From Tetraselmis striata (taxonomy: Eukaryota > Chlorophyta > Chlorodendrophyceae > Chlorodendrales > Chlorodendraceae): a stretch of 64,000 nt of DNA. The notes under the pieces were generated by a model. That model searched no databases. It was not told where the DNA came from and saw only the letters and a list, made by a program, of their open reading frames with translations. Of the stretch, positions 2,466-64,000 are shown one piece after another (position 1 is the first letter of the stretch; each line of letters opens with the position of its first letter). The stretch lies in NCBI GenBank assembly GCA_006384855.1, contig VCJN01001548.1:1-64000 (forward strand), read 5' to 3'. Position numbers and translations under genes: made by a program.

Positions 2466-2649
2466 CGCTGCGTGGAACGCAGCGAAAACTATAAGATGGC
2501 AGGCTCGGCTGTTATGGTTGCTTTTATGTCTACTCGTGCTGCACCCAAAAAGGGCGCAACGACAGGTGCCTAGTTCCCGTACCATTGAGCAGCACTTGTC
2601 GCTGAAAAGCGGTTAGGTCAAGGGAGGAAACCCCATAAACTAGTTTAGA
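2466..2649 (-). repeat. Terminal repeat of copy A
   Basis: This segment matches the two terminal repeats of copy B (53480-53668 and 56006-56200). It opens with an 8-bp perfect stem, CGCTGCGT-GGA-ACGCAGCG, contains the shared text GCTTTTATGTCTACTCGTGC, and closes with the family signature GGAAACCCCATAAAC followed by TAGTTTAGA. Confidence 0.75.
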
Positions 2650-4880
2650 TCAATATCTCGCAGCCGTCGAATTCATCTCTCAGCGCCAATAAGCGCTGAC
2701 GCGCTGCTGATATAGACCTAATGATCACTTATTTTCGCTGTTCATTTGAATAGTACGACAATAGTCGCTAGTTGACATCAGTTCATTGGAGCACTGTATC
2801 GGGGTGCTATAGCGCCGCGCCGCGTACCTGTACTGATGTTGCTGCTATCTTCAAGATAACATTCATGGATGTGTAGTGATGCGCGCGCCGCATGTAGTGC
2901 GTCGCCGCGCGGTTCTGCTGCGGGTTCCGCTGGAGTAGTCGACGACAGCGCCGCCGTCGTTTTGCTTAGAGCCTACATATATGTGTTCTTGGGGTTTCCT
3001 TCCCCTCTTTCACCCTAGGTTATGCGGGTGTTGGCACATGCTGCCCGCAGCCTCTGCGCCACGCCAAATAATTGACGTTGCGGCCAGCACAAGCAATGTC
3101 GCTCGCATGTACGGGCAGCTTGGTGCTTTGAATTAATGCCTTAGTACGGCACTTTGCGTGCCGCACTCGGCAGAAACATCGGTCACCCATCAAATCTTAT
3201 AAAACCATCATCGTCCGATAGACGGGACAACTCTCTTAGTTTTGTGATGGCCTCCTGCCTGCACAACCCACCCTCATTTTTTCTTGTGGCTCTTTGCCGC
3301 AAGTCCCCGCCCTTTGCGTGTAACTAAGCATGCGCATTTTTCGGCCTATCTCTTTCGCCCGCCACCCTATGAAATTTCGTTGTAGTATCATGGTACCGGT
3401 AGTATCCCCTTCTATAATGTTCGCTGATAACTGCAAAACGGCCGTCGTAAAGACGATGCAAGGGTTTCAAATTTAATGCAGAGGGTAGAGGGGGGGGGGG
3501 GGGCTAACGAACCCGTACATTTACATGGCGGGAACGTACATTAAACCATTTTCCTTTGGGCATTTGCCCGTTATTAGCCCGAATTGATATCAAGTATGTA
3601 ATTCGCTAAGATTCCGTAGGCGCCGGATACCCCGCCACGCCCGCTGAGCGCGGACTAGTCGTCGTCGCATGCGATGGCGCCACCTTCCTTGGCGGAGCCG
3701 ACCAGCTCAGCTCACCGGCCGACAAGCCTCGCGTACGACGGCGCGCGAGATGAGGGCCTCTGTGACCCGCTAGGGAACAAACGAGTGAACATCCATTGAT
3801 AAGTTTAGATTGTGCGAGAGATGCCGTTCCGTGGCCGCCTGGAGTACTGCGGCGATGCACCTGCACCCCGGGTCTGTGAGTAAGGCCTCTCGCCCGTGTC
3901 ACCCGACCCACCATCGCCCGCGGTTGCGAGGCCGTCGCCGCCTGAGGGTGCCGCGTCTCGATATTGGCTTCCCGGACGCCTCTTCCAAGTAGTGGTTGTC
4001 TAACGATCCCGGTTGTGGCTATGGATCCCCACATGCGCGCCGCCACGACCCTCGTTGCCAGCGGTCGTGTTTCCACGTCGTCGCATCTAAAGATGCGGCT
4101 TGATCGGCGGTGCGAACCGCCACCCACCACCGCCCGCGGCCACGAGGCCGTCGCTGCGTGAGGAGGCGCGTTCGCATGTATATTTGCCCACAGCGAGGTG
4201 GACGTGCACGGTGTCAAGTGAATCCGGGCGGAAAGCTGCGAGTGCTCCACGGCAGTATCATGAAGGCATAGGTCAGCCGCCATTGATGGATGCGGAGGCG
4301 CAGCAATCACTACGCAAGGCGGCGCTGGCTCAGCGGAACAAGATGATGGTATATTTTGTCGACTTCGGAGCTGTGGCTACAGTGGCGGCGAAATATTGTT
4401 TTTGGAAGGGGCGGCACGGCCGCGCGCGTCGCGCTCTCCGCTTTACATGCAGCGATACGTATAATTTAACTATTATGGTAACGCCTCCCGATAGCTTCTA
4501 CAACAAATGAAGCAGCTCAAGAAGCGTTGCCCTCCAATGGGCAAACAACCGCAAGAGTGACGGAAGAGGAAGATCAAGCGACACTAGGTTTGGGTGTAAT
4601 GGGTTGCAGGGGTCGTAGGAGCCTCGGCTATCCCACTAGAAATGGTTAGGAAGCCTGCAAGATCCGGCTCAGTTCCGGCTTTTTAATCACTCGGATATCG
4701 ACATTCGACAAGACTGCCGTCTCGCCTCCACCCGCTCGTGCTCCTCACACCAGTGTCCGACCGCATCATGGCACCCAGCCCGAGTCGTCCAACTCTGGCC
4801 GAGGGAGACGCTCACCTCGGAATCAACCACAGCATCTCTGGTGGCTGAGCTGCGTCGTGTGGGGAGAGACGGACGCAATG
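2650..4880. other. Gene-free stretch with short repeats
   Basis: No coding region could be supported. It holds a G run at 3490-3503 and an imperfect direct repeat of about 50 bp (3904-3952 and 4119-4168, around the word CGCCCGCGG). The word CGGCCGTCGTAAAGACG at about 3439 recurs in altered form near 16241. The longer open frames here are composition artefacts or unrecognised element debris. Confidence 0.4.
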
Positions 4881-4887
4881 CGATTGA

Positions 4888-5196
4888 TTGGTTACGTCGT
4901 CTGCAAAGCGTTGCAGAAGTACACAAGGACATATTCGTGAACAATATAAGAACGACGGCGGCAAAGAGCTGACCATATTGACCCGTCATCTTTTGGGCCG
5001 AGAGCAGCTGATGGCGCTGAGCTCAGCCGACCAGACTCGCTATGCCGCGTCGTACGACAGCCTATTAAAGCGTAATTTTGGCAAGGGCCCGCCGCCAGGT
5101 CGGTGCGGCGCACCGCAGAAGGATGGCAAGCGTTGCTCGCATGCCCCGTCGGGTAACGCTCTGCACTGTGGCAACCGCAACGTCTACGGTCTATAG
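4888..5196 (+). pseudogene. Possible gag remnant with small Cys motif
   Basis: An open stretch of 102 codons ends in CGAPQKDGKRCSHAP followed closely by a third Cys (spacing C-x7-C-x9-C). Small zinc-binding motifs of the type CGAPTKxGKxC are known in short domains of uncertain function. It lies at the left of the DIRS-type remains and may be part of its gag. There is no independent evidence that it is expressed. Confidence 0.25.
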
Positions 5197-6196
5197 ATTC
5201 TGGCGAAGGACGTGGATGTCCGGGCCCCTCACCGATCGGTTCCGTTTCTTGCAGCTGCGGCAAGACACCGGACGAGCATATGGATAGTGATTTCCCAGAG
5301 GAGGTGGTGCGTTGCAAGTTTTGTGCCACGGGTGCTGTCAAGTCGTGTACTCAGATGCTCGAAGATTTCATGCTCACTGATATGCAGTAAAAGAACGTAC
5401 GCTCCATCTTCCTGTGTTGCGGCGCATTCACCATGGGGTCGCGCCGCGATAGCCACACCCACCCTCCCCTAGCGTCGTTCAGCATTTTTGCATGTCTGCC
5501 TCTGGTGTGCTACGACACTCGCATGGAGTGGGGGCTTCTACTCAGCCAGTGGGACCGAAGTCTTTATTACGATAGCGGTGCACAAGTCTTTCTTTCGCGA
5601 CCCGCATCATATGCCGCCAGCCCCGGGTGGACCGCCGACGTCTACAAACAGCCAAGCGACAGTAGCAGCAGGCACCCTCAGCGAGAGAACCGTCTCATGG
5701 TGTCAGCGCCGTGGAGCGGGAGCGAGATGCATTGCCGGCGGTAATGGAGTTGGTGCAAGGGATCGATACCCGGATGGAGGGTGTCGAGTAGTCTTTGGCG
5801 GGCCTTAGGCGCGCCGCGCCCATCCCACCAATGAACGCCAATTTCGTTGGAGCTCCAATACCCTACGGCCCCATGCGTCCGGCGGCCGGGCGTCATGTAA
5901 CGGACGTCACTGACCTTAACCAAGGTATGACCGCTACCTAGTAGCCATTAGACGACTTCAATTCCGCGGGCAAACCGCTCGCAGATCATTTGGAATTCAT
6001 TGGAACTAAGGCCAATACCGATCCGGTGGGCCGGCCCATTTCTTCGCCAGGGCATTACTTGCATACGGGTTATCCGAAGTAGGCTACACGGCTCGTGGCC
6101 AGGGTGAGAAGGGCCCGGCCTTCCTAGAGCTGATGAGCTACAACCGCGCAAATTGTCACTAGTCACCGTCACCAGCCTGAGACTTACTAGCGCAAC

Positions 6197-56766: not shown

Positions 56767-57231
56767 GTGGACATGATATCCGTACGACCTAACAAGGACG
56801 CCCGGGCGGCAGTTGGGATGGCAGCTGGGAGAAAGCAGGGGTATCAGCCCAGCACGTCCCTGGCAATGGAGGTTCAGGCCAAGACTCCTGCCACGCACTG
56901 GAAAGCCGGCCTCGAGGACCAGTTCGTATTGAAGGAGGCCTGGCTGCGGGATCTGAACCGCAAGGCGAAGCGCGAAATGGGCGTCCAGGCGGGCGACACT
57001 TACACTCCGGCGGACGAGCTGTTCCTCTCCCACAGCTCACGCCAAGCGAACACGCAGGAGCTGAAGCGCAGGGTGGTATGCGCGCTGAGTGCCGTCAATC
57101 CGGTGCGCAGCCGCCCCTCAGTCCGTCCTGAGCTCCCGACTGCCCCAGCGTCCGATGACTTTACCTTGCAGTTTCGGCTACTCGGGAGCTGGCTGCTGCA
57201 GAGCCACGTGCGGATGATTAGCGCTCAGTAG
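56767..57231 (+). CDS. ORF of 154 codons, unknown
   Basis: ATG at 56767 to TAG at 57231. The composition is protein-like (charged helices such as QFVLKEAWLRDLNRKAKREM), without low complexity. It sits between two patches with related inverted words (GCTACTAATACTAC... near 56273 and ...TAGTAGTAGCG near 57250), suggesting it belongs to a small element. No family was recognised, and no splice signals mark it as an exon. Confidence 0.3.
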   Translation: MDMISVRPNKDARAAVGMAAGRKQGYQPSTSLAMEVQAKTPATHWKAGLEDQFVLKEAWLRDLNRKAKREMGVQAGDTYTPADELFLSHSSRQANTQELKRRVVCALSAVNPVRSRPSVRPELPTAPASDDFTLQFRLLGSWLLQSHVRMISAQ

Positions 57232-57814
57232 TCGCTAGTAAGGATTTTTAGTAGTAGCGCCGCAGACATAGTGACTGGTCGCTAGATGAGACCTACGGTA
57301 CGAGTACCATCCCCGCCGTAGGTAAGCGCGCCCCCCCCCCCCCCCCCCCCAAAAGCGCCGGTTACCTCTATCATTGTTACTACAGGCGTCAAATAAGGTA
57401 ATGAACGGGTGGATCTTTATCCGTGCGCAGGCTGCACGCTGCCTGCATGTCGCCAAACCGATTACTGCCCTGTAGTGGGCATATATCCTCATCCCGGGTT
57501 GTTCAACCCCCGTCTTTATGGTAAATATCATGTGTTTGGGATTTATATCTCTATCTCATAGCGTAGTCGTTACTTTTTCATATTACAATATAGTCGCTAT
57601 ATCTGGACACCCCGACCGGCCGACCCTGCCTTGACGTCGCAGACCTGCTGTTACCAGCACGCCGTCAGCCATCAGGACAGGTTTCCAGTATCTGGTACAG
57701 TACTCTAGAGGTCTGCAACCCGCCCTGACTGGCCGGGCGCGGGCGCCGCACAGCCATAGTAGTGGCCAGTCGCTCAGAGCCCCAGACCCCCCTCTGGACA
57801 GGAGCGCACTGCGA

Positions 57815-57900
57815 AAAACCCCCATATCACCCCCAAGGGTACTTTGGGGGACCAAAACCCCTCCTGCCCCGGCAGGCATATACTACATAAAAAACAACCC
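57815..57900 (+). repeat. Dispersed repeat family 2, copy 2
   Basis: It matches 31868-31960 in the same orientation and ends with CATATACTACATAA-type text. A C run of 21 bp lies upstream at 57330-57350. Confidence 0.55.
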
Positions 57901-58105
57901 GGTCCTCATCTTCCCTCGTGAACTAGCTGCCCCTACCAGTGGCACAATGAATGCGGTGGCGTTTGGTGGACATGTACACATTTAAATCTAGCATTGGTGA
58001 AATGCTACATCTTGCCGGATGTGAATGCGCTGCATCGCATCCATGCGGTATGCTTCTAGGGTTACATAGGGTATTTATGTGCCCTACGCTGCAAAAATGC
58101 GCGGT

Positions 58106-58340
58106 GATAAAATTAAGTTAAGTTCGCCCAGGGTCTTGGGCCGAAGATGCCCCAGCACTTGACCTCGTGCGCCAATTGCAGTCGTAGGTCTGGGATCGCT
58201 ATTAGATCGTTGCCTCATTCAAACCCCGAAGGGCAGACCGTTGCATCACCCGGGTAAACCGAGGACGCGGGCCCGGACGTTATTGCCCTGAAATGCCGGG
58301 AATGATCTGGGGACCTCCTGAGTAGGAGAGACCACCGCTC
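58106..58340 (-). repeat. Dispersed SINE/LINE-tail-like repeat, copy 2
   Basis: It is a counterpart of 30364-30600 at roughly three-quarters identity by eye, including GCCCCAGCACTTGACCTC and GCAGTCGTAGGTCTGGGA. The tandem tail at its left end is degenerate (AAATTAAGTTAAG). Confidence 0.55.
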
Positions 58341-59308
58341 TAACGAAAGTGCGGTCATGTTGCGGGTATCTTGCGTCGCGAGCCCATGGCCATAGCCGCG
58401 CTTGGCGTATACGCTTCAAAAATCAGCAATACCCGCACAATATTGCGCGCTGGGAAAACGAAAATTGCCGATTTAGGGTTTTAAATCCTAAGACCGTGCA
58501 GTCCATAAGGTGATAGTGTGGCTGTAAACTGTGTGTGGTACTGTTACTTAGCCGCACCCGCACCCGTGCCCGCTAAGTCCGCGCAGAGTCAGTGCACCGT
58601 GGTCCGCGCGCGGCGGGGTTGCTTCACCACAAGGAAATGTGCCTACGGTGATCGAACCTGCGCCGAGAGGGCGCACGTGTACGGGGAGCGCCGCTTAATC
58701 GCTCAGGCCGCAGCCTAAAAGTAACAATGACGCTTTGTTTTGTTCATATACCCGGTACTGAACGGTTCGCTGCACCGCGTGAGGCACCGATTTGAAGTTG
58801 AGCTGTTAAACCCCGTTTCTGTAGTGTACGAGTACTTGTGTGAATATATGCATAGCACCGCCACACCTGCCGTATTTGTCGCGCACATAATTCACATGTG
58901 CTATTATGTTCTAAGCAAGCATTTTGTAAGGATATAACATATGTACTCACTATATGTGTAAGTTGATATACAGCCTTCAAGCGACCATTCCTAGTTAAGC
59001 ACTACGCAGCATGCATGATGTCAACCAAGTCTTTGTTCGCACGATCCCTACTAGGCATGGTAGCACCTAGGTAACCATCTTCCACAGGGTGTACTACCCT
59101 GACACTGCAAATACCCCGTGAAGTATCGATGTGACATAGTTGCTCTTAGTTTTCGCTGCTCTCGGCTTGGGTGCATGTTGCTGGGGCCCTCAAACTCCTG
59201 CTGCAGCGGACTTGTCTGGCCGCGCTTCGTAGCGCACTTGTCAAGGGGCGGGCTCACGCGCTGATGAAGTACTCCCCCCCCCCCCCCCTCTCCCGTCATG
59301 TTTCTCAG
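58341..59308. other. Gap upstream of TIR exons; expected first exon not seen
   Basis: In none of the three forward frames did I find the F-I/L-S-Y-R/S type beginning of a TIR domain. A C run at 59275-59288 and a pyrimidine-rich tract lead into the 3' splice site at 59307-59308. The gap therefore appears to be intron or 5' flank. Confidence 0.5.
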
Positions 59309-62300
59309 GACTGCAGCCCGGGCTTCACGTACTGGGCTGACTTCCTGGACCTGGCGGCGCGTGGGCCGGTGCCCTGGCGGCAGGAAATATTTGAGGGCGT
59401 GCAGCGCTGCGCCAAGTTTGTGGCCATCATTGACTCCGCCTACCTGCAAAGCTACAACTGCTTGCAGGTGCGAAAATGTCGAACTCTCGAGTCTCCTTGC
59501 CATGGCCGGGCGGGTCTTGACGTCTCGACCCCGCCAGGTTCCGCGGCACTGTCCCCACCCCGCGATCGATCGATCAGCGCGCTGCACCTCACAGATTTAT
59601 CCCAAGGTTTGAAATACTCATATCCTGATTGATTGTGCGTACTGCTGGCGCCGCCTCGAGCGCCCCGTGATTGGCAGCTCCGCGCGATGTGCACTTGGCA
59701 TACAGCTGTGTGCCGCACACCCTTGAGTGCATCTGACACAGACGACGCTCCTCCAGGCTCGCCCCGCTAGTGCCAATCTCGTGATAATCGAATGGAGAGC
59801 TGGGACTGCTGACAGCAACTATGTAGCATTGGGCAGCTTCTGTCATGTCTCCCGCAATTGATCACCCGCTGTTTTTTTCCGTGCAGGAGCTCTACTGCGC
59901 CATTGTCACCAAGAAGCCCATCATTCCAATCCTTCTCGATGATGTATGGGCTCCCACCTTGCCCACTTCCCACCCTGGCCGTGCGTTTCCTCCAGCATGG
60001 CCGGCAAGGGCAGTCTTGCAGGAGTGCTTCCCACTTTGCCAGCGTCATGTTTACCAACTGCAATCTGCGTCAATGTGTCGCCAGGCTGCCATGAGGCTCC
60101 TCACCCATCCACAGGCCGCAAACGTGGCTTGGGATGCGCCTGATAGCCAAGAGCTGCGGAAACACGAGGTGCGGCTTGATCAGCTCTGCTGCTCGTGAAT
60201 TGTATACAGCCTGTCAAGGGAATGCGATGCCCCCCATCTTTGCAGTGCTCGGTAATTCCAATTGTTCACAGCTGCACTTGGCTGGACGGTGCTGCAGGGA
60301 TCAGACATCTTCAATGGTGACCTTTTCACGAAAGAGACCCTGAGGGAGATCTATGAGCACCTGTCCAACATAAACTTCTGCTGCTACCGGAAGTTCGATG
60401 TAGAGGTCATGGGTGACGGGACATGCCTGAGGAACGTGCATCAGTTTGTGGCGCGCGACATCCCCTATCTCAAGGTGCCCCCCCATCCACCCCTCACCCC
60501 TTGCAATGCCGTGTTGGTCGATGCCAATCCGCGTTTGCTGACTCCATGCTCATCGTCTTGCGTGCATGCTTGTTGGACACCCCCAGGAGCATTCTGAAAT
60601 CACACAGAGAGCCCTTCGTTGGATTGCCCATGGCAAGCGCAGTACAGCGAGCTTGCTGCTCCAGGGGGACGACATTCAGAAGTGGTCCATCTGGAAAGAA
60701 CAAGCCCTGAAGTATAAGCAGGAGCCAGAGCCTTCGCCTCTACTGATAGAGTTCATCAAGGCGTCGCGCCGCTACTCTACAACCCGTCGCCGCATGCTGA
60801 CTGCTTCAGCTGTGGTGATGACCCTGCTGATTATGGTTGGGGCTGTGTGCTCTGGTGTCATGGCGGTTATTGCTGCAGGGCACGCAAGCAGGGCGGACCA
60901 GAAGAGTGTAGAGGCAAGTGTTGCCCAGATGTTGGCTGAGGATCAGCGAGCCATAGCGGAGGAACAGAAGCTCAATGCAGAGCGTGAAGCAGCCAAGGCC
61001 CTCCTGGAGTCGGAGAGATCCAAGCTGCTGAGCCGCCGCACGGCAGCAAGCTCCCTGCTCTCTGTGATAGGCACACACATCAGCGGGTCGTGGGCCAATG
61101 AGGACGTGAAGCTGATGAACGTGGTGCTGTCCAACTTCACGGGGGAGCAGATGGAGGCGACTGAGGCGGCCGCAGCCTCCAAGTTGCTGGACATGACCAA
61201 GCTTCAATTCATTTCCAGAGGGGTCAGGCAGCCCCCTTCCCCCTGCGTGTCCCCAACTCCATCACTCCATGCGGCGCTTGTCTCCTGGGTTATGTGGTAT
61301 CTGTGATAGTACTCATGCCAAATAGACAGAGAAATAGAGCGAGCCACCATAGACTGTGTGGAAACTGCCCCTTTGACCTGTTGCTCCTTCCCGCGCCCCC
61401 TAAATCTTTTCTGTCCTGACACGGCGTAGGTGCTCAACTATGGTCATACTCATGTCCCTCACACGCTCTCCTGGAGCAAAACTACCCAACGCCTGGTCAC
61501 CCTGAGCGACGACGCCTTGATGAGCCTCGAGGCGGATAGCTACACGCCCCTGGTGCTGGCCCGGTTCCAGGGTGTGGAGGGCGCCAACGTAACCACGTCA
61601 GCCATCAGCAAGGATCACGCCATGCTGGCTGTGGGCGTGGAGAGCAGTGTGGTTGTGATGGACATCAGGGACATGGCGCGGCCAACACCGCACGCCGTCC
61701 TGCGCGCGTCTTCTGCGGAGGTCACTACTCTCGCGTGGGCCGGTGACCGCAGCCTCCTGGCAGTGGGCAGTGCAGATAGCCTGCTGCGCCTGTGGCGGTA
61801 CGACTCGGCTACGGGGAGCTTTGGCGCAGGGCCAGCAGCAGTGCTCCCCCGCCAAAAAAGCCGCATCTCATGCGCAACATTCTCCGACCCGCTCGCGTTA
61901 TTTGCGGTTGGGACTGTGCATGGCGTTGTGTCCAGTTTTGAGGTGCGCTTTGATGAAAACGGGACACTTGTGGCTGCGCCTACTGGCTACGGGACAGGGT
62001 CCGTCTACGGCGGAGTCGGCCGCATAACCGCACTTGCCTTCTCCTCCGCTGTCGTTTCCGCCAGCTCACAGGACGGAAGGGACTTCCTGGCGGTGGGGGG
62101 CGAGGACGGGGGTGTGAAGCTCTACTCCGTGCGGTATTTGGACTGGTTAATGTTCCACAATTTCAATTACATGGTGATTGCAGGCCACAGTGGCGCCGTG
62201 ACGACGCTGATGTGGTCTCCTGACAACTCCCGCCTGGCCACCGGCGGTGCGGACGGCGCGGTGCTTGTCTGGGCCAGCGACATCGGCTTTGAGCTCCCTC

Positions 62301-64000
62301 AGGCGGTGCTCGACCTTGGCGACGCCGGCATCACTTCCCTGACATGGGGGTTATCACCAGCTCTGGGCGAGCAGCTGCTGGCAGCCACTTCCGACGGGCG
62401 GATCCATCCTTGGGTGGCAGGCCGCGACTCACTGCCACTGCGGGAGGTGCCAGTGATGCAGGGCGCACTGAGTGAGGCGGTCAAGATTGCGGCGCTGGAT
62501 TACACTATGCCGGGCTATTCCTGGTCTCTCTATAACAGAGGGGGGGATCGTGTGGGGCAGAATTCTGGCAACGTTGTCAGTTTTGGCGTCCCTGGTGCGC
62601 CTGAAGCTGCCCCACTCACGCCTGTATCTGTCAACGTGGTGGCGTGGTCCCCAGACGGGGCGCTGCTAGCGGTGGCTGGGGACGACGGGCATGTTGCCAT
62701 CATCTCCAACGCCGACGTGGCGGGAGGCATGGATCCTAGCCAGGCGCCTCCCTCAGGGCCGGTCGCACCGCTCGTCACCCTGCCAGCCCACACCGGCGCG
62801 GTCACTGCCCTGGCATGGTGTCCCAAGAGTCGGCTGCTGGCCTCTGGTGGTGCGGACGGCTTGCTGGCGGTGCTGGATCCGATGGCCAATGCCACAGACG
62901 CGCCGCCGCTATTATTGCAAGAGCAAGTCGGCGGCGTGACGTCTGCAGCCTGGTGGCCGACCCCTGTCGACGTGGCGGGCTCGTTGAGGAGACACGTGCT
63001 GGCCTCTGCGGCTGCGGATGGCATGGTGCACATGTGTCGCCTGCATATTGACATGGCAAGCCGCGCTACAACAGTCACGGACACTGTGCGTCTATGGGAG
63101 GGAGGCGCCGTGAGCTCGGTGGCCTACGCGCCCAGCGGCGCGAGGCTACTCAGCGGGCATGAGGATGGCGCCATTCGCGTTTGGAAGGTGGACACGGAGA
63201 CGGGCATGGTGGCGCAGTCAGCCGAGCCAGCGCAGGTGCTGTGGCATGCGGGCGGCAGCCCAGTGATGGGGTTGTCGTTTGCCACCAACCTTATGGCATC
63301 TATCAATGCCGCCAATGCGGTGCAGCTATGGGATGCGGCTCCAGGAGATGCGCCGACAAGGCTGCTACAGGTGACGCCTCCCGTCCCACGGCCTGTGCGC
63401 AATCATCCAAAGAATCCATCAGCATGTCATCATGTGCAGATACAGCATGACACAGACTTGCGATGTCTTGCTGAGAATACCGGCGGTGGGCAGAGGTTTC
63501 AAGAGAATAAAAATTCTCAACGGTGATGTGCTGAGAGCGCCCGGTTGCAAACGCAACAAAGCTATCGTTAAAGGAATCGTTAAAGCCCGATTGGTTGCAT
63601 CGCTGAGACCCCTAGAAGTTGTTATGTCATTGGCACGCTTTGTGTGGCGAACAGTGGCATGTAGTCATGGACCTGCCATTTCCGAGGCAGATTGATTGGC
63701 ATCTTTCAAATCTTGGCCCTAAACCTACCGACCCATACCACTGGACGCCAATATTACATCAGCAGCTTTCACAACACGTCATACCAAAGCGCTATTTGCT
63801 CCGAAACCAACTATCTCGAACGCCTTGCTTGGACCCACCATACCACCTCTGATGTCCCGATACCTTGCGGGGGCTGTCAAACACCAGGCACTGATCATGA
63901 AGATGCGGGTGCGGACATGCAGGTCCTGGACAGCTTTTCCATTCACACCCCCGGCACGGACGTGGCGCTGGCTCCCGACGGCCACTCTCTGGTTGCGGCC
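59309..64000 (+). CDS. TIR - membrane helix - coiled coil - WD40 protein, partial
   Basis: Exons are placed at 59309-59467, 59887-59943, 60085-60168 (start could be 60115), 60298-60474, 60587-61222, 61430-63370 and 63923 onward, all phase 0; about 1,044 residues are visible and both ends are missing. Exons 1-2 form the later part of a TIR domain: VPWRQEIFEGVQRCAKFVAI, then SAYLQSYNCLQ|ELYCAIVTKKPIIPILLDD, with the Glu of the C-x-x-EL motif as first codon of exon 2. TIR domains with this Glu cleave NAD+ in plants, animals and bacteria. Exon 5 begins EHSEITQRALRWIAHGKRST and contains EPEPSPLLIEFIKASRR, very like the linker of bacterial TIR-WD40 proteins; then come a membrane helix (SAVVMTLLIMVGAVCSGVMA) and a coiled coil. 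Exon 6 holds about eleven WD-like repeats (for example TTLMWSPDNSRLATGGADGA) and exon 7 continues them. A membrane-anchored sensor with an NAD-cleaving head is the likely reading. Confidence 0.8.

Follow-up and report, generated by a model that had tools for sequence, protein, structure and literature searches.

Can a green alga carry, among its own nuclear genes, a receptor built to a bacterial plan? The question is raised by a gene at the far end of a 64,000-nucleotide stretch of Tetraselmis striata DNA, which we call the window (C1252:1-64000, the start of contig C1252 in an assembly of 224 Mb and 2903 contigs). The gene is interrupted by introns and encodes, in order, a TIR domain, a helical linker, one membrane helix, a coiled coil and a long WD40 array. 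Most of what is known of TIR biology in eukaryotes comes from the TIR-NLRs of plants and from TLRs and SARM1 in animals. What is novel here is a bacterial TIR-linker-helix-WD40 receptor in the form of an intron-bearing, eukaryotic multigene family. Our best reading of the sequence, which we think somewhat likelier right than wrong, is that this nuclear T. striata gene encodes a TIR receptor anchored in the membrane and bacterial in design, which would signal by cleaving nicotinamide adenine dinucleotide (NAD), plausibly in defence.

How far does the gene extend? The original prediction had it begin at 59309 and gave it at least six phase-0 introns. The introns are there: between 59309 and 64000, seven exons are separated by six introns, all with GT-AG borders, and join into 1034 stop-free codons (exon ends set by eye, phase 0). 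The beginning had to be moved. Comparison with the related proteins P0003-P0007 led us to reject a TIR start at 59309, since exon 1 lies 2.2 kb upstream; its start codon is proposed, and the TIR start motif ADELFLSHSSRQANTQELKRR, from 57010, falls within it. With exon 1 comes a seventh intron, so that the gene has at least seven, and the eight exons in the window read as 1144 stop-free codons. The other end also lies outside the span first drawn. Comparison with a paralog places further exons at 63.9-65.3 kb of C1252, the gene running on beyond the window to about 65.28 kb.

That paralog, on contig C175, is one witness that the gene is real. Its identity to the window gene is 94% in exon 2, 74% in exon 3, 65% in exon 4, 71% in exon 5 and 72% over most of exon 6, in a comparison covering DNA from exon 2 on (the paralog's exon 1 fell outside the compared DNA). 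For exons 2, 3 and 5 the match is complete, preceded by AG and followed by GT; for exons 4 and 6 it is partial and followed by GT. For exons 2-6 the nonsynonymous and synonymous divergences are dN 0.127 and dS 0.636 (dN/dS about 0.20, 321 codons), and for the WD40 exon dN 0.299 and dS 0.736 (about 0.41, 640 codons). The gene is under purifying selection. C175 encodes the Tetstr1 protein P0002 at 98-100% in four main pieces, and the published P0002 model lacks the TIR exons located upstream of it. Introns tell the same tale. The annotated P0003, on C687, shares four identical intron positions with the window gene (LSRVRE/, FNCVM/E, SYD/G and DLPYLK/E, the slash marking the intron), and a fifth (ILDQE/A) lies at most 1 residue from its counterpart; P0003 has an extra intron after the helix that is missing in the window gene. 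The mapping took in the first 760 residues of P0003 and phase-0 introns only, its badly mapped last piece being left unused. The expectation that TIR and WD40 belong to one gene agrees with two presumably transcriptome-derived records, P0044 from Tetraselmis sp. GSL018 and P0045 from T. astigmatica (MMETSP0804), in which TIR, helix and WD40 stand within a single open reading frame. Two other origins were considered for the window gene. A contaminating bacterial gene was rejected, as paralogs share introns, the assembly is 224 Mb and there are relatives in other Tetraselmis; a virus-borne gene is not supported, given the introns and the low open-frame density.

What does the protein consist of? 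All of the predicted parts are present in the order named, by Pfam and hydropathy, the coiled coil being assigned by eye. TIR_2, whose cut-off is 28 bits, reaches 36.8 bits on the joined protein; for the 361 residues that exons 2-6 encode the score is 39.3 bits. Both were scored without exon 1, and the match starts only at profile position 24. The segment 59309-59943, originally read as a TIR fold, is thus TIR by Pfam, and exon 1 continues it. WD40 on the joined protein reaches E 4.7e-37, and the best 25 of its 40 Pfam families are TIR_2 and propeller or WD40 models. In exons 2-6 no family but TIR_2 passes the cut-off: no NB-ARC, NACHT, other STAND NTPase, ARM or SAM. ARM and SAM are absent from the four families listed for those exons and from the best 25 of 40 for the joined protein. 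No NLR-type NTPase, ARM or SAM is therefore seen in exons 2-6, in keeping with the predicted place outside the NLR and SARM1 lines. Nor is this the layout of a Toll-like receptor, the TIR being N-terminal and LRR missing from the best 25 of 40 families. Past the window, at 64549-65282 of C1252, a Cys-rich tail is conserved with P0002 (57-68%). By eye it resembles secreted Cys-rich modules; a WSC or EB nature, suggested by eye only, found no backing in Pfam, which gave EB at E 0.23 for the paralog, under the cut-off, and nothing relevant for the window gene.

The bacterial connection began with a thin thread. Against plasmids (tblastn), the TIR-linker part of P0007 returned one weak match, E 0.6, in the linker region of a Kovacikia minuta gene annotated as a TIR protein, which carries three TIR-linker units and CHASE2. 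With the Kovacikia unit as query we reached Bernardetia and Tolypothrix sp. PCC 7712, whose protein WP_264267989.1 has the order TIR-linker-helix-WD40 (its WD40 is assigned by Pfam; its TIR is not among the best 25 of 42 families there). Alignments made the kinship firm. Eight Tetraselmis-type sequences, two of them the metagenome proteins P0005 and P0006, matched five bacterial units in hhalign with probability 99.6 and E 1.5e-23 over 197 columns of TIR and linker, and a second alignment of seven bacterial units at E 2e-19 over 202 columns; Tolypothrix is in both bacterial alignments. The bacterial-type architecture foreseen for this eukaryotic gene is thereby supported by profile kinship, beyond domain order alone.

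The bacterial TIR-linker type comprises at least 1395 proteins at E <=1e-10, 120 of them among the matches listed. In species genomes, the type accounts for at least 477 of the 593 stretches picked up by pattern (79 loci kept), and their titles name cyanobacteria and Chloroflexi or Anaerolineae. In 118 of 123 bacterial proteins (P0046-P0168) a helix follows the last linker. The full set of unit, helix and three or more WD40 matches, the latter scored with a profile of 13 Tolypothrix repeats, is present in 76 of those 123 and in 50 of 84 open frames from the 79 loci. Cyanobacteria had been named beforehand and stand; in actinobacteria, also named, an nSTAND1-WD40 protein of Streptomyces matched weakly, in the linker, and nothing further was seen. 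The type is seen in Chloroflexota and Bacteroidota too.

A tree grouped the eight Tetraselmis-type rows, together with a divergent, intronless copy from contig C613 of the assembly, apart from 41 bacterial units with support 100/99. The 41 units were picked for diversity from 145 and are biased to Tolypothrix relatives, so the donor is not readable from the tree; because the tree is unrooted, the direction from bacteria to alga is one that we infer. The family was probably acquired from bacteria and then expanded in Tetraselmis. Viral contigs held no relative, either by the Tetraselmis-type profile with its two peptide patterns or with the C613 protein as query.

Is the TIR domain an enzyme? 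The glutamate of a C-x-x-E motif is present in all nine aligned copies, the C613 copy included, and this region we take to be the site of the catalytic glutamate in NAD-cleaving TIRs, equivalent to the catalytic residue of SARM1. The best match of the Tetraselmis-type profile in the PDB is Cat1, at E 0.0029, in an alignment that spans the motif. Cat1 is an NAD-cleaving, CRISPR-associated effector. The bacterial profile finds Cat1 at 1.1e-13, SARM1 at 1.7e-8 and AbTIR at 5.6e-8, as well as TIR-APAZ. It is the conserved glutamate, and only that, which suggests that the protein may cleave or deplete NAD.

Which way round does the protein sit in the membrane? All ten Tetraselmis-type and viral-type sequences carry more lysine and arginine before the helix, towards the TIR, than after it. 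Of 117 bacterial sequences 107 do the same, 2 show the reverse and 8 are equal (6 of the 123 uncounted). This bias predicts the TIR inside, in the cytosol, and the WD40 outside. Potential glycosylation sites, N-x-S/T, lean the same way in the nine sequences other than C613: ahead of the helix there are 5 where shuffles predict about 10, and beyond it 42 where they predict about 30, counts being summed over rows. This is a hint only, given that these proteins are relatives of one another and that the C613 copy has no such bias (1 against 0.7 before, 2 against 2.2 after). The WD40 part, with its dN/dS of about 0.41 against 0.20 for TIR and linker, would be the faster-changing outside sensor of a conserved cytosolic enzyme. 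If this topology is right, "inverted Toll receptor" would be a fair description.

Put together, the parts suggest how such a receptor might work. TIR and helical linker would lie in the cytosol, with a single signal-anchor helix spanning the membrane and the coiled coil, WD40 propellers and Cys-rich tail on the far side, at the cell surface or in the lumen of the secretory system. The WD40 ectodomain would bind a ligand, a surface or a partner, and binding, or its loss, would gather the TIR domains. Clustered TIRs could then cleave NAD+ through the conserved glutamate to give a signal of the cyclic-ADP-ribose type. At high activity, NAD depletion could lead to cell death, most plausibly in defence.

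Several points weigh against this reading. Taken by itself, the Tetraselmis-type profile finds TIRs in the PDB only weakly (E 0.0029 and 0.19), and the bacterial profile also matches the non-enzymatic TIRs of TLRs, Toll-related receptors and MyD88; as it finds NADases and TLR/MyD88 alike, fold kinship alone selects neither enzyme nor scaffold. PADLOC defence models gave no match at E 0.001 in the first 366 residues of the window protein; in the same scan the TIR of the bacterial protein P0048 matched ThsB and other TIR models, and the WD40 parts of P0048 and P0044 both matched HEAT-ARM_XIII. As to topology, the charge rule describes a tendency, and the modest glycosylation-site bias, drawn from related proteins, gives a hint. 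WD40 propellers in eukaryotes are mostly cytosolic, which fits poorly with an outside location, and the C-terminal tail, which would lie there as well, has no Pfam match over cut-off in window gene or paralog. On origins, the profile of Tolypothrix repeats gave one match to the window WD40, at -1.3 bits, though Pfam recognises that WD40, so the homology demonstrated to the bacterial protein covers TIR and linker, the propellers aside. The Tetraselmis-type profile, again with two peptide patterns, matched 21 stretches in prokaryote genomes, none of them a relative, and hence no donor lineage is named. Finally, at about 64.07-64.09 kb of C1252, beyond the window, the frame shifts relative to P0002 between WD40 residues; a sequencing error and a real frameshift are here indistinguishable, and the copy could be damaged. 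Taken as a whole, the interpretation offered in the original prediction is partly supported.

Three other explanations compete with an NAD-cleaving receptor in defence. The protein might sense stress, nutrients or cell state, or recognise self, with TIR products serving as an ordinary second messenger in place of an immune or death signal. We regard this as unlikely, yet deserving of attention: the bacterial TIR-linker unit is also joined to CHASE2 and, going by Pfam numbers, to CHAT, TPR and LRR, and a large family of diverging sensors is compatible with many ligands. Set against it, characterised bacterial TIR effectors are mostly defensive, and the faster change of the WD40 part fits an arms race but relaxed constraint as well. 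Secondly, the TIR may be a scaffold without enzyme activity that assembles only with other TIRs, as in TLRs and MyD88, its WD40 forming a cytosolic platform that faces an endomembrane. WD40 domains are usually scaffolds, and the TLR, Toll-related receptor and MyD88 matches of the bacterial profile point the same way; but the C-x-x-E glutamate is kept in nine of nine copies, the charge bias places the TIR and not the WD40 in the cytosol, and the best PDB match is an NAD-cleaving effector. We find a scaffold rather improbable. An artefact, in which neighbouring TIR and WD40 genes were misjoined or a decaying copy was read as intact, could draw on the frame change and on the truncated P0002 model, and is very improbable in the face of the single open frames of GSL018 and T. 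astigmatica, the shared introns and the purifying selection.

How widely is the family spread? Residues 78-390 of P0004, searched against 5.8 billion proteins with only the best 8000 candidates by common words scored, gave six matches at E <=0.01, the query included: five are named Tetraselmis and the sixth is the metagenome protein P0006. Within the T. striata genome, where 39 of 398 candidates were scored, P0003 gave at least 50 matches, spread over at least 25 places and 24 contigs, to which C175 and the window locus add. The figures are minimum numbers of places and do not count intact genes; several match in the linker part only, and two pairs with equal scores may be alleles. TIR_2 has 13 matches in the genome, of which C613 and C1973 belong to this TIR-WD40 family, C1973 encoding a sequence almost identical to the Tetstr1 protein P0007. 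Other TIR_2 loci resemble the family profile little or not at all: L003 weakly (E 0.0004), C2273 at no more than 8.5 bits, and the other eight of loci L001-L010 without a match at E 1. TIR-WD40 proteins of this family have so far been seen only in Tetraselmis. In the accessible parts of the literature on TIR-WD40, Tetraselmis and giant-virus TIRs (including PMC8195603, PMC10907252 and PMC7159879) no description of this TIR-WD40 family was found.

Some observations on the wider genome belong beside these counts. A second type of TIR, with the motif FLSHDW or FLTHDW, occurs at five of the ten loci L001-L010 (L002, L003, L008, L009 and L010). P0043 (Tetstr1 448137) is a TIR-WD40 model fused to an N-terminus that lists PF02899 and PF13495, which we take to be recombinase-type domains; the fusion may be a model error or reflect a mobile-element neighbourhood. 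On C2379, between about 93 and 187 kb, the WD40 region of P0002 finds one match after another. Many of these contain in-frame stops, and the series suggests a tandem array of WD40 genes.

The C613 copy deserves separate treatment. It is an intronless frame of 1040 codons at 2645-5764, minus strand, of locus L014 (C613:98500-108000). Its TIR_2 match scores 46.6 bits, its helix spans residues 296-314, and WD40 matches are present too. Its C-terminal YGxL...DL motif is, by eye, similar to that of host proteins. Around it the DNA has a different texture. Over 110 kb (48.5-158 kb, eleven pieces), open frames of at least 250 codons take up 31-93% of the sequence, piece by piece; the window's first 60 kb, measured in steps of 10 kb, gives 0-8%. 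The C613 figure is raised by frames overlapping on both strands and by higher G+C. Five of ten C613 frames scanned (L017-L026 surroundings) have Pfam families. These neighbours are a helicase, two D5-type primase-helicases (one with AEP_C962R), an mRNA capping enzyme with three domains, and a photolyase. They make the stretch, which may be integrated or may be a co-assembled virus, resemble a nucleocytoplasmic large DNA virus (NCLDV). The capsid model PF04451 had no match, its control giving none either; PF16903 had one, on C2306 and not on C613. In the tree the C613 copy is sister to the eight others (support 84/92), with unusual composition in its row. Three alternative placements were not rejected in approximately unbiased tests (p-AU 0.418, 0.099 and 0.512), which makes its place relative to the host copies tentative.

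How does the gene compare with systems already described? With the bacterial TIR-linker-helix-WD40 proteins of cyanobacteria, Tolypothrix WP_264267989.1 for one, it shares domain order, a collinear TIR and linker, a helix straight after the linker, the same charge bias and the conserved C-x-x-E. It differs from them in its seven or more introns, its N-terminal extension and the Tetraselmis-type TIR signature YWADFLDL..GPVPWR.EI; the Cys-rich tail sets apart the window gene and its paralog, and a longer post-TIR loop the relatives of the window gene, the homology demonstrated to the bacterial proteins covering TIR and linker. The bacterial nSTAND1-WD40 proteins (Streptomyces sp. NPDC050856, P0016) have a similar linker-helix-WD40 layout, but an N-terminal NTPase in place of the TIR, and the linker similarity is weak, 16-18 bits. 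Toll-like and IL-1 receptors would, if our topology is right, be alike in their single pass, cytosolic TIR and outside sensor; the window protein has the opposite orientation, WD40 and not LRR or Ig, and keeps C-x-x-E. SARM1, the TIR-NADases and Cat1 have the TIR and a glutamate in the same motif (Cat1 aligned), whereas the window protein is membrane-anchored, carries WD40 and has no ARM or SAM that we could see. The red alga Chondrus crispus supplies another algal protein with TIR and WD40, a TIR-NBARC-WD40 which has an NB-ARC ATPase between the two (PMC9806590). None is seen in window exons 2-6.

The coordinates are collected below. Intron 1 contains two poly-C runs, at 57324-57350 and 59267-59293. 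The ten other open frames of the window match no Pfam family at E 0.001, and Rfam and tRNA scans of the window gave no match.

Table. Parts of the TIR-WD40 gene that lie within the window (positions are those of the window; a slash marks an intron position)
Feature	Position	Strand	Remarks
Exon 1	56773..57102	+	N-terminal region and first part of TIR; donor GTGCGC, phase 0; based on alignment with P0003-P0007
Intron 1	57103..59308	+	2206 bp, ends CAG; position agrees with an intron of annotated gene P0003
Exon 2	59309..59467	+	TIR core, ends at NCLQ/E site; paralog C175 94% identical
Exon 3	59887..59943	+	TIR; conserved glutamate at its start (SYNCLQ/ELYCA...PIIPILLDD)
Exon 4	60115..60168	+	TIR-linker junction
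Exon 5	60298..60474	+	Helical linker start (LSNINFC..., ...DIPYLK)
Exon 6	60587..61222	+	Helical linker (EHSEITQRALRW...PEPSPLLIEFIKAS), membrane helix, coiled-coil-like helix
Membrane helix VMTLLIMVGAVCSGVMAVI	60815..60871	+	Model residues 336-354; Kyte-Doolittle mean 2.48; lysine/arginine 4 before, 2 after
Exon 7	61430..63370	+	WD40 array, 647 codons
Exon 8	63923..64000	+	More WD40 residues; runs off window end

What might Tetraselmis do with so many of these genes? One idea, which we offer tentatively and consider unlikely to be right in full, is that the alga expanded inverted Toll receptors from bacteria as a cell-autonomous antiviral or antibacterial immunity, and that giant viruses of the alga carried a catalytically equipped version, as the vehicle of import or as a captured decoy or effector. 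A DNA virus of T. striata, TsV-N1, is reported (PMC10120064). The C613 copy, in its NCLDV-like stretch, links the family to exchange between virus and host. If our reading is true, this membrane-anchored TIR-WD40 family of a marine green alga would show one more way in which modules of bacterial defence type have entered eukaryotes.

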